This document shows positions 6,813-13,782 of a stretch of DNA of 64,000 bases, one piece after another. Where the stretch lies: the NCBI RefSeq assembly GCF_947494875.1, contig NZ_CANLWM010000001.1:62001-126000 (forward strand), given 5' to 3'. Each line of letters begins with the position of its first letter. Position 1 is the first letter of the stretch. The notes beneath the pieces are model-generated. The model did no database searches. It was given only the letters and a program-made list of their open reading frames with translations, and was not told the origin of the DNA. This DNA comes from an uncultured Williamsia sp. Lineage in GTDB: Bacteria > Actinomycetota > Actinomycetes > Mycobacteriales > Mycobacteriaceae. The translations under genes and the position numbers were made by a program.

Positions 6813-7524
6813 CACCTCCACCCTCCAGATCGGTCTCGTCCTCGGAGACGTGATGGGCACCTACGGCGATGGCGGGAACGCACTCGTCCTGCGGCAGCGG
6901 GCGCTGATGCGGGGCATCGACGCCGAGATCGTCCAGATCACGCTCGACGACCCCGTCCCCGAGTCCCTCGACGTCTACACCCTCGGCGGCGCCGAGGACT
7001 ACGCACAGCGCCTGGCCACCCGACATCTGTTGCGGTACCCGGGATTGCAGCGCGCCGCCGAGCGTGGTGCGCCGGTGCTCGCCATCTGCGCGGCCATCCA
7101 GGTGCTCGGGCACTGGTACGAGACGTCGGCGGGTGAGCGGGTCGAGGGCATCTCGATGCTCGACCTCACCACGAGTCCGCAGGGCAAGCGCAGCATCGGC
7201 GAACTCGTCGCCGAACCACTCGTCGACGGGCTCACCGACACCCTGAGCGGTTTCGAGAACCACCGGGGTGGAACGGTTCTCGGTTCGGACTCGGTCCCGT
7301 TGTCCCGGGTGCAGGCCGGCGACGGGAACCGTGCCGGCGACCGGTTCGACGGCGCGGTGACCGGATCGGTGATCGGGACCTACCTCCATGGACCTGCACT
7401 GGCTCGCAACCCGCAACTCGCCGACCACCTGCTGTCGCGGGCTGTCGGATCTCCACTGCCTCCGCTCGATCTCCCCGAGATCGATCGTCTTCGCCGCGAA
7501 CGGATCGCCGCCGGTCGTCGCTGA
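6805..7524 (+). CDS. gatD: lipid II isoglutaminyl synthase, GatD glutamine amidotransferase subunit
   Basis: Class I glutamine amidotransferase-like subunit that releases ammonia from glutamine for MurT. The 239 residues include the nucleophile Cys95 in LAICAAIQVLG and the likely catalytic His195 in GTYLHGP, the CobQ-type arrangement. The GTG at 6805 overlaps the murT stop by 8 bp, so the two are translationally coupled, as expected for a 1:1 complex. The last 32 bp of the gene recur almost unchanged at 13735-13766. A large inverted repeat follows the stop codon. Confidence 0.93.
   Translation: MADTSTLQIGLVLGDVMGTYGDGGNALVLRQRALMRGIDAEIVQITLDDPVPESLDVYTLGGAEDYAQRLATRHLLRYPGLQRAAERGAPVLAICAAIQVLGHWYETSAGERVEGISMLDLTTSPQGKRSIGELVAEPLVDGLTDTLSGFENHRGGTVLGSDSVPLSRVQAGDGNRAGDRFDGAVTGSVIGTYLHGPALARNPQLADHLLSRAVGSPLPPLDLPEIDRLRRERIAAGRR
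7492..7523 (+). repeat. gatD 3'-end direct repeat, left copy
   Basis: This 32-bp stretch encodes the last residues of GatD (RRERIAAGRR) and matches 13735-13766 at 30 of 32 positions, with a 22-bp perfect core. The two copies bracket the PGRS/LuxR block. It is the functional copy, since the gatD stop codon follows. Confidence 0.75.
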
Positions 7525-7525
7525 G

Positions 7526-7575
7526 CCACCCACGTGATACACCTCCGACGGCGGCCCGACCGTCTACGTGGGTGG
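7526..7575. terminator. nested inverted repeat between gatD and the PGRS gene
   Basis: CCACCCACGT (7526-7535) pairs perfectly with ACGTGGGTGG (7566-7575). Inside the loop, GACGG (7547-7551) pairs with CCGTC (7560-7564). It starts two bases after the gatD stop and faces the converging PGRS-like gene (ends 7595), so it probably terminates both transcripts. Confidence 0.55.
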
Positions 7576-7594
7576 GTCCGTCTTCTCACGATGG

Positions 7595-10500
7595 TCAGTC
7601 TTCGGAAATCGCCAGCGAGTTCGCCCCGGTCGCCGTGGCACGTCCCGGTCCGCCGCTGACACCGCCCGCGCCGGTACCACCTCGCCGGGCAGAAGCGACG
7701 CTGTTGTCGCCTGTGGCGTCAGCGATCCCGCCGCTGCCTCCCCTGCCGGTGACGGAGCTGCCCCCGCCCAGCGAGGTTGCGTCGGAATCGTCACCGATGG
7801 TGGTTGCGGTGCCGCCGTTTCCGCCGTTGCCGTCGACAGTGTTGCCGCCCCCGGTGGTTTGGGCGACGCCGCGCGCGCCGTCCACCCTCGCCGAGCCTGC
7901 GGCCCCGCCGTTTCCGACCACGGTCGACCCGCCGGCCCCGCCATAGGCGACTCCGTTGTTCCCGACGACTGATGCGTCACCCCCGGTGCCGCCGTTGCCG
8001 TGAACAGAGTCGCCGCCACCGTCGCCGCCGAAGCCGCCGCCGTTGGCGAAGGCCACGCCGTTGATACCGTCCACTCTCGCCGAGCCGCCGGTGCCGCCGT
8101 CTCCGGTGACGGTGGATCCGCCCACACCGCTGGTGGCCCATCCGTTGGCTCCGACGACTCTTGCGTCACCGCCGGTGCCGCCGTCGCCGGCGGTGGTCGA
8201 ACCCCCCGCGCCGGCAGTCGCGACACCGTTCGCGCCGTCCGCCCTTGCCGAGCCGCCGGTGCCGCCGTTTCCGGTGACGGTGGATCCGCCCACACCGCTG
8301 GTCGCGACTCCATTGGGTCCGACGACTGATGCGTCACCGCCGGTGCCGCCGTCGCCGGTACTGGTCGAACCGCCCGCGCCGGCGGTCGCGACACCGTTGG
8401 CGCCATCGCGTGGATCGTTGCCGCCGACTCGGGCGTCACCACCGTTGCCGCCGGCGCCGAACTGTGAAGCCCCACCCGACCCGGCGGTCGCGACACCGTT
8501 GGCTCCGACGACCGATGCGTCACCGCCGTTGCCGCCGGCGCCGGACTGTGAAGCCCCACCCGATCCGGCGGTGGCGACACCGACGGCTCCGACAACTGAT
8601 GCGTCACCGCCGTTGCCGCCGTCGCCGCCGGCGGTCGACGATCCACCCGCGCCGCCGCGGGCCGTCCCGAAGAGGCCCGCGGTTGCGTCTCCGCCGTCGC
8701 CGCCGCGACCACCGATTCCGGCAGCGCCGGCCAGTCCGGCTCTGCCGGTGCCGGCCAGTCCGCCTGTGCCGGCCGCGCCGCCGTGACCCCCGACGCCGAT
8801 CCCGGCGCCGCCGTCGCCGCCCGTGCCCGCGACCGCATTCGCGGACGGGGTCGCCGCCGATGCGTCGCCGCCTCGACCACCGTTGCCACCGGAACCGCCG
8901 GTTCCGCCGATCCCGCCGTCACCGTTCGCGCCGAGAGATCCCGTGACGGACCCTGACCCACCGATGCCGCCGGACCCGCCGGTTCCGCCGTTCCCTCCGG
9001 CGCCGCCACCGACGGCGCCGTTCGCGCCGTCGCCCGCGACGAGTGTCCCGGATCCGTCGTCCACCGCGTCTGCCCCGTCGGCGCCGTTCGCTCCGGTGAA
9101 TCCGGTCCCGCCGACTCCGCCGGTGCCGCCTCTGCCGCCTGATCCGCCGTCGCCGAGTTGCCCAGCGGCCCCGATGATTCCACCGGTTCCGCCGCGCCCG
9201 CCCGCTCCCCCGACGCCACCCGAACCGCCCGTTCCCCCGGTGCCGGCGGCTGTCGCGATCGCCGTGCCGGTCGTGCCCGTTCCGCCGACTCCACCGGTGC
9301 CGCCGACACCTCCGGTGCCGCCGATGCCACCGTTGCCGATCAGGCCGGCCGCGCCGCCCCGGCCGCCGACACCACCGGCACCGCCGACTCCGCCCGTGCC
9401 GTCCCCGGTGCCGGGTGTACCGGTCGCGCCGATCGCTCCGTTGCCGCCACGGCCACCGACGCCGAAGATCACGCCCCCGTTGCCGCCCGATCCTCCCGCA
9501 GCGCCGGCTGCCAGACCGTCACCGCCACGGCCACCGGCGCCGAACAGTTCGGCGTCACCGCCGGTCCCGCCGTTGAAGCCGTTGCCCCCGTTGCCGATCA
9601 AACCGCCACGGCCGCCGTTGCACACCATGCCCAGCAGGCACGTCGCCGAGGTGTAGCTGAACCCGTTGCCGAACAGGAGGCCCGCATCGGGGTGCTCGGC
9701 GGTGCCGTCACTGATCAGCAGGACGAGCAGCGCCTGCAACGGGTTGAACGGCGGCGCCGTCGCCGTGACCGGCTGCGGGGTCAGTGCATTCGTGGATGCA
9801 GTGCCGGTGGTCGTGGCGAGCTCACGGCGGGCGACACCGGCGGCGACCCAGGATGACGGTCCATCCGCCGACGCAGGACTGCCGGTGGAGCCGTGCTGCT
9901 GGGCCGTGGTGAAGATACTCAGCAGCGCTGCGACGATCGCCGTCGCCGGCGTCGGCGGGGTATGCGACGCAACAAGCGGTACGGGCGTCTCGCCCGCAGC
10001 ATGTCGCTCACCCGGCGCCGTGGTCACCGTGCCTGCTCCCGTCGCGGTCGACGGTGCTGAGGTCGTCGACGTGTACGTGGTCGGCGGCGTGTTCGTGGTC
10101 GGCGGCGTGGTCGTCCTCCCCGCCGTCGTGGATGTCGTGATCGGCGTCGAGGTGGTGGTCGATGGCGAGGCAGTCGACGCGGCGGCGGTCGGCGTCGACG
10201 TGGTCGACGTCGCGGTGCTCGTGGCCGGCGCCGCGTCCCGCGTACCCGACGACGATGTCGTCGGAGTGCCCGCGTGGTCCGGCGCTGTTGTGGTGGTCGG
10301 GGCCGGTGCGCTCGAACCCGCAGAACCGGCCGGCGACGTCGACACACCACCACCAGTGGCTGTGGAGCTCGGTACGGACGTCGTCGACGTGGGTTCGGTA
10401 CCCGTCGAGGTGGTCACGGTCGAGGACGGACCCGACGATGTCGTCGTACCCGCGCCCGCAACTTCCCTGTCGGCCGGAGCTCTGCTCACCGACTGAGCGC

Positions 10501-10627
10501 CGGTACCTGAGGTGACCGGGGCGGTGTCCGCAACGGCGGTGCCCGTTCCCGCGGCACATGCCCCCGCGATCGCAGCAGCCCCGCCGGCGAGCTTTGCAGC
10601 GCGCACCCAATTCCGCTTGGCCTTCAT
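7595..10627 (-). CDS. secreted glycine-rich PGRS-like repeat protein
   Basis: A 1010-residue exported protein. Residues 1-35 form a signal peptide ([20 protein letters not shown], ending near AVADTAP). Residues ~36-210 are a Ser/Thr/Pro linker. Residues ~215-315 hold two hydrophobic patches ([19 protein letters not shown]). From DAGLLFGNG (~315) to the end it is a GNGG/GTGG-type array like that of mycobacterial PE_PGRS proteins, but no PE domain is present. The last ~320 residues are a regular 28-residue repeat. GAAGG six bases before the ATG at 10627 favours that start over the ATG at 10633. It diverges from a LuxR regulator. Cell-envelope or surface placement is inferred; function is unknown. 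Confidence 0.85.
7643..8605 (-). repeat. eleven-unit, 84-bp (28-residue) tandem repeat array
   Basis: Eleven consecutive units inside the PGRS-like gene follow a pattern such as [14 protein letters not shown] followed by [13 protein letters not shown]. Nine units are 28 residues long, one has 34 and one 35. In the middle of the array, units beginning DASVVG/DARVVG alternate with units beginning SARxDG, giving a 56-residue higher-order repeat. The last unit fades into the C-terminal tail ending in SLAISED. Confidence 0.8.
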
Positions 10628-13579: not shown

Positions 13580-13597
13580 CGAGGGACTGAACGCAAG

Positions 13598-13609
13598 TGG
13601 TTCGAACCA
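13598..13609. repeat. 12-bp palindrome at the edge of the recR relic
   Basis: TGGTTCGAACCA is a perfect palindrome and ends one base before the start of the duplicated recR sequence. It resembles a tRNA T-loop core, but no tRNA can be folded here. It may mark a recombination junction. Confidence 0.4.
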
Positions 13610-13705
13610 GTCGCCTCACCCTCTGTGTTCGGGCCGGTCGCGACGATCACCTCGGTCACGTCGGCACAGTCGGACTGATCGACCGACCACCGCAACAGTT
13701 CCCGG
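13610..13705 (-). pseudogene. recR fragment (Toprim segment), relic
   Basis: These 96 bp align without gaps to 15876-15971 inside intact recR and are clearly more alike than chance. Read on the minus strand they give [18 protein letters not shown], against [18 protein letters not shown] in RecR, so the Toprim Asp is lost. Sequence on either side does not align to recR. The fragment sits next to the gatD relic and 2 kb from the functional gene, so it is a duplicated remnant rather than a gene. Confidence 0.75.
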
Positions 13706-13734
13706 GAACGGCGCCCGCTGACTGGCCGATCACC

Positions 13735-13766
13735 CGCCGCGAGTGGATCGCCGCCGGTCGTCGCTG
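13735..13766 (+). repeat. gatD 3'-end direct repeat, right copy (relic)
   Basis: Matches gatD 7492-7523 at 30/32 positions and would encode REWIAAGRR. No stop codon follows at the matching place, and the rest of gatD is absent. It lies 16 bp from the phosphotransferase stop, the place where gatD would be expected to end if the two genes had once been neighbours. Confidence 0.7.
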
Positions 13767-13782
13767 CCGCGGGCCAGGCCAC

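Follow-up and report, generated by a model that had tools for sequence, protein, structure and literature searches.

In the type VI secretion system (T6SS) effector/immunity arrays of Vibrio cholerae, homology-facilitated illegitimate recombination that displaces a former occupant has been proposed (PMC5361080, in the excerpt used here), and in Escherichia coli conjugation one-sided integration of linear DNA is described, together with circularisation by ligation followed by a single crossover (PMC3240628, likewise in excerpt). On the side of the encoded proteins, reports of a recognizable PE/PPE domain are confined to Mycobacterium, according to the available portion of a further study (PMC11939664). 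The locus described here lies in a 64,000-nucleotide stretch of the genome of an uncultured Williamsia sp. (GCF_947494875.1, contig NZ_CANLWM010000001.1, positions 62,001 to 126,000), which we call the window and whose numbering is used throughout. It runs murT, gatD (+), PGRS1 (−), luxR (+), recR', gatD', phosphotransferase (−), kinase-like gene (−), recR (−), where PGRS1 encodes a PGRS-like protein, luxR a LuxR-type regulator, recR' is a decayed fragment of recR and gatD' a copy of the gatD 3' end. The segment 13585-13766, which carries both pieces, is best read as the decayed scar of an old recombination, composed of native recR and gatD sequence and not of the ends of an element.

The 32-bp repeat of the gatD end is real. 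Local alignment of 7400-7600 against 13600-13800 under strict scoring pairs 7492-7523 with 13735-13766 at 30/32 positions, ungapped and with two mismatches, and yields no match longer than 32 bp, in agreement with the preliminary description of this DNA; lenient scoring adds an upstream CGATC across a 2-bp gap, which is not counted. The recR fragment given in that description is equally confirmed, with 13610-13705 identical at 86/96 positions to 15876-15971 of the intact gene, and at the protein level the fragment possibly reaches 13585-13710. A both-strand comparison of all 32-mers of the window outside the masked PGRS gene (7595-10633) gives just two pairs with at most two mismatches, the gatD end (7492-7523/13735-13766) and recR (13610-13673/15876-15939). 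Searching the 4.77-Mb own genome with the 261-bp query 13540-13800 (40 of the 156 first-look candidates scored) returns the query itself, recR at E = 1.8e-30 and gatD at E = 1.1e-6, the next listed match standing at 0.004. A 23-mer of the gatD tail, allowed up to three mismatches, has only three places in the whole genome, namely gatD, gatD' and one site on contig 7, and none on contig 3, where a second PGRS-like gene (PGRS2) lies. Matches of this quality are not a commonplace of the genome, as they would have to be for the repeat to lose its meaning: none of eight dinucleotide shuffles of the window (PGRS removed) contains any 32-mer pair with at most two mismatches, six of eight real stretches of 10-19 kb contain none, and the remaining two contain one each, both overlapping near-palindromes.

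Both pieces resemble the genes of their own genome more closely than those of any congener compared. The identity of recR' is 86/96 to own recR, 80/96 to recR of the nearest relative, G002, and 74-78/96 to that of five other congeners, and at the sites where own recR and G002 differ it carries the own base in 6/6 cases. Its decay is visible in the distribution of its ten changes in 96 positions, which fall on the three codon positions as 2, 4 and 4; between own recR and G002, both working genes, five of the six differences fall at one codon position. At the sites of seven of the ten changes the six congeners compared all agree with own recR, and nine of the ten lead to a base found in none of the six. 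The own bases, together with changes over all codon positions, point to an origin within this lineage, once it had split from G002, and recR' is most likely a native copy of that age, free of coding constraint. For gatD', the nearest sequence is again own gatD, at 30/32 against 21 to 27 of 32 for seven congeners. The similarity between gatD and gatD' ends within the stop codon, with unlike DNA beyond, as is to be expected if a different occupant begins on each side.

The two pieces lie ~30 bp apart on the same side of the block formed by PGRS1 and luxR, in the reverse of the chromosomal gatD...recR order. Since both are in the intergenic stretch between luxR and the phosphotransferase gene, the block does not have, in the usual sense, the duplicated edges on its two sides that had been supposed, and they constitute a single non-homologous joint between two pieces of known origin (recR'|gatD' within 13585-13766). 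Nor do they have the look of element ends or of a target-site duplication: one is recR sequence in decay and the other a gatD tail, without like copies in the same region of seven congeners, where the only matches are two weak ones to recR on the opposite strand in G005 (19 and 24 bp, E 0.045). The spacers on either side of the joint, 55 bp from luxR to recR' and 16 bp from gatD' to the phosphotransferase gene, gave no useful match within the window. A perfect 12-bp palindrome, TGGTTCGAACCA, at 13598-13609 abuts the left edge of the recR piece and may be due to chance.

The space from gatD to kinase-recR is a hotspot, and its cargo varies among Williamsia species. Its flanks are fixed in all eight genus genomes compared, own included; the right one begins with a small gene labelled kinase from a P-loop sequence read by eye, not from a database match, and continues with a gene (15728..16399) that we take to be recR, following the preliminary description and a gene order presumed to be like that of M. 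tuberculosis. The gatD-to-kinase interval, taken from one match end to the other, measures 44 bp in G004 (Williamsia herbipolensis), an empty site, 0.8 kb in G003, 3.1 kb in G007, 4.9 kb in G001, 5.2 kb in G005, 6.5 kb in G002 and ~13 kb in G006. The left edge of the variable interval is the gatD stop codon or a few bases beyond: the final 32 bases of gatD match G002 at 27/32 and G006 at 26/32, and past the stop the DNA of these two congeners resembles each other and differs from the window. A Pfam scan of 19 congener open reading frames (ORFs) chosen from among those of the intervals identified an alkaline ceramidase gene in G007, G005 and G001, the last with a LysR gene as well; ferritin-like, GGACT and, slightly short of the cut-off, cytochrome b561-like genes in G002; and exonuclease, ABC-3C-type CTD10, DUF2326, DUF4145 and ParB_N genes in G006, with no integrase or transposase among the 19. 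A tRNA-linked site as the cause is rejected, the sole tRNA of the window lying far off at 29403-29490. The alkaline ceramidase genes of the three Williamsia genomes are at L127:10823-12847, L129:5977-8049 and L131:6570-8726, and the ~13-kb interval of G006 (W. deligens; L128:240-13480) has the appearance of a defence-type insertion.

In this setting the preliminary description, which took the block for an inserted two-gene module at a gatD/phosphotransferase junction, is partly supported. Among the eight genus genomes PGRS and LuxR follow gatD in the own genome alone, and the pair recurs elsewhere in it with its promoter sites; the type of junction does not stand. The phosphotransferase had been regarded as the natural convergent neighbour of gatD, a place held by kinase and recR in the eight genomes. 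It was found in one of 41 genomes searched at E <= 1e-30, the own, and at none of 93 gatD/recR-region loci at E <= 1e-6, and is rejected as the ancestral neighbour. The empty site sought for exists, as gatD-44 bp-kinase in W. herbipolensis, but with the kinase and not the phosphotransferase next to gatD. The 93 loci comprise the best 80 of at least 493 relatives and 13 further regions. In 77 of them, those within the score limits, gatD faces recR, and as four genomes occur twice these represent at most 73 distinct genomes; the kinase lies between in 24 (gatD-to-kinase 44 bp to 6.5 kb) and was not found there in 53 (gatD-to-recR 41 bp to 7.3 kb). Eight of the 77 intervals, of <=66 bp, are too short for a copy search, and in the 69 searched (three of them repeats) no copy of the adjoining gatD or recR lies on the same strand at E <= 1e-3, the only match being 18 bp on the opposite strand (L080), which is not counted as a scar. 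The scar is thus exceptional rather than a feature of the hotspot. G006, which has a truncated gatD at one locus and no recR at the other, falls outside the 77, and its interval is covered by the comparison of seven congeners.

We give about an even chance to a history in which end-joining linked a break in recR to gatD and so placed a PGRS/LuxR occupant next to the phosphotransferase occupant already resident. The donor would have been a very close strain with PGRS and LuxR in the gatD-kinase space, and the recipient the resident chromosome with the phosphotransferase in that space. On the left, homology in murT-gatD would have anchored the incoming DNA; on the right, an end produced by a break within recR would have joined the resident gatD tail without homology. 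Such a course could have followed homology-facilitated illegitimate recombination, or ligation of the ends into a circle and a single crossover, and a single event would have produced gatD-PGRS-LuxR-...-recR'|gatD'-phosphotransferase-kinase-recR; later deletions would have removed the second, redundant kinase and the end of recR', leaving the remainder to decay as neutral DNA. The order recR'|gatD' is the one that an end-to-end join gives, and no model that takes the two pieces as one event can do without the joining of a recR break to a gatD tail. All nine genomes searched, own included, have the end-joining protein Ku.

A number of observations weigh against this history. Neither the donor form, gatD-PGRS-LuxR-kinase-recR, nor the recipient form, gatD-phosphotransferase-kinase-recR, was found in the genomes searched, which represent one per species. 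No kinase copy lies between luxR and recR', where one is expected, and its deletion has to be assumed, as it has under tandem duplication. gatD' departs from own gatD at two positions and at one of them shares its base with G006 and G003, so that simple decay of the present gene is not its only possible origin. The scar distance of ~0.11, set against a synonymous divergence (dS) of 0.46-0.68 between the own genome (G000) and G002 for recR, gatD and kinase, suggests a scar younger than the G002 split, but the basis for this age is 10 changes over 96 bp and a rough comparison of dS with the distance of a pseudogene. Finally, a tandem duplication yields the same joint.

Local tandem duplication is the main rival, and we regard it as possible, if doubtful. 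End-joining or slippage would have turned the segment from the gatD tail to mid-recR into a head-to-tail repeat with recR'|gatD' at its joint; PGRS and LuxR would then have replaced the copy-1 kinase and recR end, with the phosphotransferase occupying copy 2. This gives the same order at the joint, leaves both pieces nearest to the genes of their own genome, makes a donor unnecessary and, through the redundancy of copy 1, accounts for the loss of the kinase and of the recR end. It also predicts, however, that the DNA after gatD and after gatD' should match, yet the similarity stops inside the stop codon, and later replacements from about the same base on both sides are needed. Filler-DNA repair offers a second, unlikely route, in which a break after gatD was end-joined with capture of PGRS-LuxR, and patches of recR and gatD were copied into the right junction. 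The shortness of the pieces (96 and 32 bp), their sources within 7 kb, their retention of the source orientation and the presence of Ku agree with it, but two separate templated patches are required, and a gatD patch ending in the stop codon would be a coincidence. We consider very unlikely the mobile surface-protein/regulator module of the preliminary description, which would have duplicated the gatD end on insertion, the 32 bp at the 3' end of the gene serving as an att-like site. The insert does lie exactly between the 32-bp copies, with the intact gene on one side, and the genome carries the pair a second time. The absence of a transposase also holds, in that the two large genes of the block (7524-13609) are PGRS and LuxR, without recombinase or transposase, the smaller overlapping ORFs not having been scanned; it speaks against an element, as do the absence of the gatD-tail 23-mer from contig 3, the lack of such copies in the seven congeners or the 69 intervals, and the position of recR' beside gatD', which such an element leaves unexplained. 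Nothing shows that the block moves by itself. Chance similarity, although a G+C content of ~70% raises the frequency of chance matches, is rejected by the own-genome E values (1.1e-6 and 1.8e-30), the count of 32-mer pairs and the 0/8 shuffles.

The block itself most likely encodes a Gly-rich surface protein that is secreted and whose gene is under the control of the divergent LuxR-type regulator, acting through three putative TGCAGTAGT sites. By its translation PGRS1 is a PGRS-type repeat protein without PE: a signal-peptide-like N end and a Thr/Ser-rich linker precede a conserved N-domain, common to its relatives, and then Gly-rich repeats. There is no Pfam match at 0.001 and no NCBIfam match at 0.01, and neither collection finds a PE domain, the place of which is taken by the signal-peptide-like start. 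Relatives of the N-domain at E <= 1e-12 occur in eight of 300 other genomes of the family, seven in genus g45, which we guess to be Mycobacterium, and one in g35, and in none of the seven congeners; at E <= 1e-8 one of 60 relatives has it, only part of the first-look candidates having been scored in some genomes of both searches. These relatives are 45-68% identical to the N-domain of PGRS1, and several have a signal-peptide-like N end too, as judged by eye. The plasmid collection searched holds no match to the N-domain. In another genus (G074, L174) the N-domain lies inside a 3288-aa open frame. Among the papers listed in literature searches on PGRS with Williamsia, Gordonia, Rhodococcus or LuxR, none concerns its pairing with a divergent LuxR-type gene; titles on mycobacteria were among the matches listed for PGRS more widely. 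In the portions available of PMC10215345 and PMC3670865, 'PGRS' is the plasmid name pGRS1 and one table heading.

PGRS2, on contig 3, has an N-domain 84% identical to that of PGRS1 and ends in Big_9 and cadherin-like domains. The ratio of nonsynonymous to synonymous divergence between the two genes, ~0.24 over the signal peptide and ~0.16 over the N-domain, is consistent with selection on both. Their dS of 0.34-0.53 exceeds the scar distance of ~0.11, so that PGRS1 probably split from PGRS2 well before the joint formed, a comparison that says nothing on where PGRS1 lay at that time. Beyond a conserved gene pair the flanks of the contig-3 copy are unmatched in three congeners, and no clean empty site is seen there.

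The regulator matches PF13191 and PF00196 above their cut-offs, as an N-terminal ATPase and a C-terminal GerE helix-turn-helix (HTH). Its start at 10957 is the likelier one, since 9/12 matches from other genomes align from residues 30-37 of the long ORF onward. The closest relatives are 36-38% identical, and plasmids carry only relatives of 31-38% (seven plasmid records at E <= 1e-20). Upstream of PGRS2 there are again three TGCAGTAGT copies, spaced by 20 and 22 as against 19 and 22 at PGRS1, and the two promoter regions are alignable end to end, with gaps. Window positions 9494-11061 align to 10971-9405 of the contig-3 region (L150) at 75%, and 11150-11257 to 9436-9329 at 86%, the latter within a broken LuxR remnant. 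On contig 3 no intact relative was found of the regulator, whose only own-genome match at E <= 1e-10 is itself. Single TGCAGTAGT-like sites are not enriched across the genome, GTGCAGTAGTGGAG with at most two mismatches giving 35 matches against 134 for the reversed control; the tandem arrangement gives four matches, at two own loci, and none in 40 relatives or for the control. The same sites and the broken LuxR at PGRS2 point to one regulator for two unlinked PGRS genes, and the regulator of the gatD locus probably also controls PGRS2 in trans. A LuxR-PGRS pairing in G051 is not supported, the two kinds of gene lying apart there. As a tentative extension, in which we place rather little confidence, PGRS, LuxR and the triple TGCAGTAGT may form a cassette from a mycobacterium-like source, present at two places, with a dead regulator on contig 3 and the gatD-locus regulator running both genes in trans; such cassettes might spread through hotspots on homologous flanks without a transposase of their own.

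The features are collected in Table 1. murT is the conserved left flank, syntenic in congeners, and its true start is probably downstream of the listed GTG. The phosphotransferase has weak APH(3') matches, far below the NCBIfam cut-offs.

Table 1. Positions of the features discussed (window numbering unless L150 is named)
Feature	Position	Strand	Evidence or remark
murT, lipid II isoglutaminyl synthase Mur ligase subunit	5469..6812	+	Pfam MurT_C 2.3e-21, Mur_ligase_M 2.2e-13
gatD, intact	6808..7524	+	GATase_3 9.5e-34; GatD model match below its cut-off
gatD 3' end, source copy of the 32-bp repeat	7492..7523	+	30/32 with 13735-13766
PGRS1, PGRS-like secreted protein gene (predicted), 1012 aa	7595..10633	−	translation
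Three direct TGCAGTAGT copies	10782-10790, 10801-10809, 10823-10831	+	putative operator between PGRS1 and luxR
luxR, LuxR-type large ATP-binding regulator (897-aa ORF 10861-13554)	10957..13554	+	GerE 1.7e-11, AAA_16 9.6e-9
recR', decayed recR fragment	13610..13705	−	86/96 to own recR 15876-15971
gatD', gatD 3'-end copy; composite joint together with recR'	13735..13766	+	30/32 to gatD
APH-type phosphotransferase gene	13783..15114	−	PF01636 2.3e-23
Small kinase-like (P-loop) gene	15186..15731	−	conserved right flank; adjoins recR in 8/8 genus genomes
recR, intact, source of recR'	15728..16399	−	98.7% amino acid identity to G002; dN 0.006, dS 0.46
PGRS2, second PGRS-like gene, 1449 aa	L150 9841-14190 (own contig 3, 158840-163189)		
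LuxR remnant beside PGRS2	L150:9329-9564	−	broken; triple TGCAGTAGT sites kept

The readable scar suggests that accessory genes can enter a hotspot without a mobile-element enzyme, so as to leave two occupants side by side. Two unlinked PGRS genes with common promoter sites and a single intact regulator make a simple testable case of how expression of a PGRS-type surface protein is turned on outside the mycobacteria, and the two-copy PGRS regulon is a more useful lead than the scar.

Among known systems, the regulator is like those of the class that we take to be called LAL in its N-end AAA ATPase, its C-end GerE HTH and its length of ~870 aa, and unlike them in that its relatives are only 36-38% identical and its target sites are predicted. 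PGRS1 shares with mycobacterial PGRS proteins the GGxGG repeats and a related N-domain; it differs from them in the lack of a detected PE domain, in its Williamsia host and in its divergent LuxR-type partner, which is not beside the G051 relatives. The gatD-recR interval has the conserved flanks, the species-variable cargo and the empty form of variable intergenic hotspots, but, unlike these, no integrase or transposase in the 19 scanned ORFs and no nearby tRNA, the 3'-3' convergent position being its only evident feature. The history proposed for the joint is closest to the model for the V. cholerae T6SS arrays, with one homologous side and one non-homologous joint, and with the old occupant displaced downstream beside the new one and remnants left behind (PMC5361080, PMC3240628, both in excerpt). 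It departs from those arrays in that the event is known here from the DNA alone, in that the host is actinobacterial, and in that the recR'|gatD' joint can still be read.

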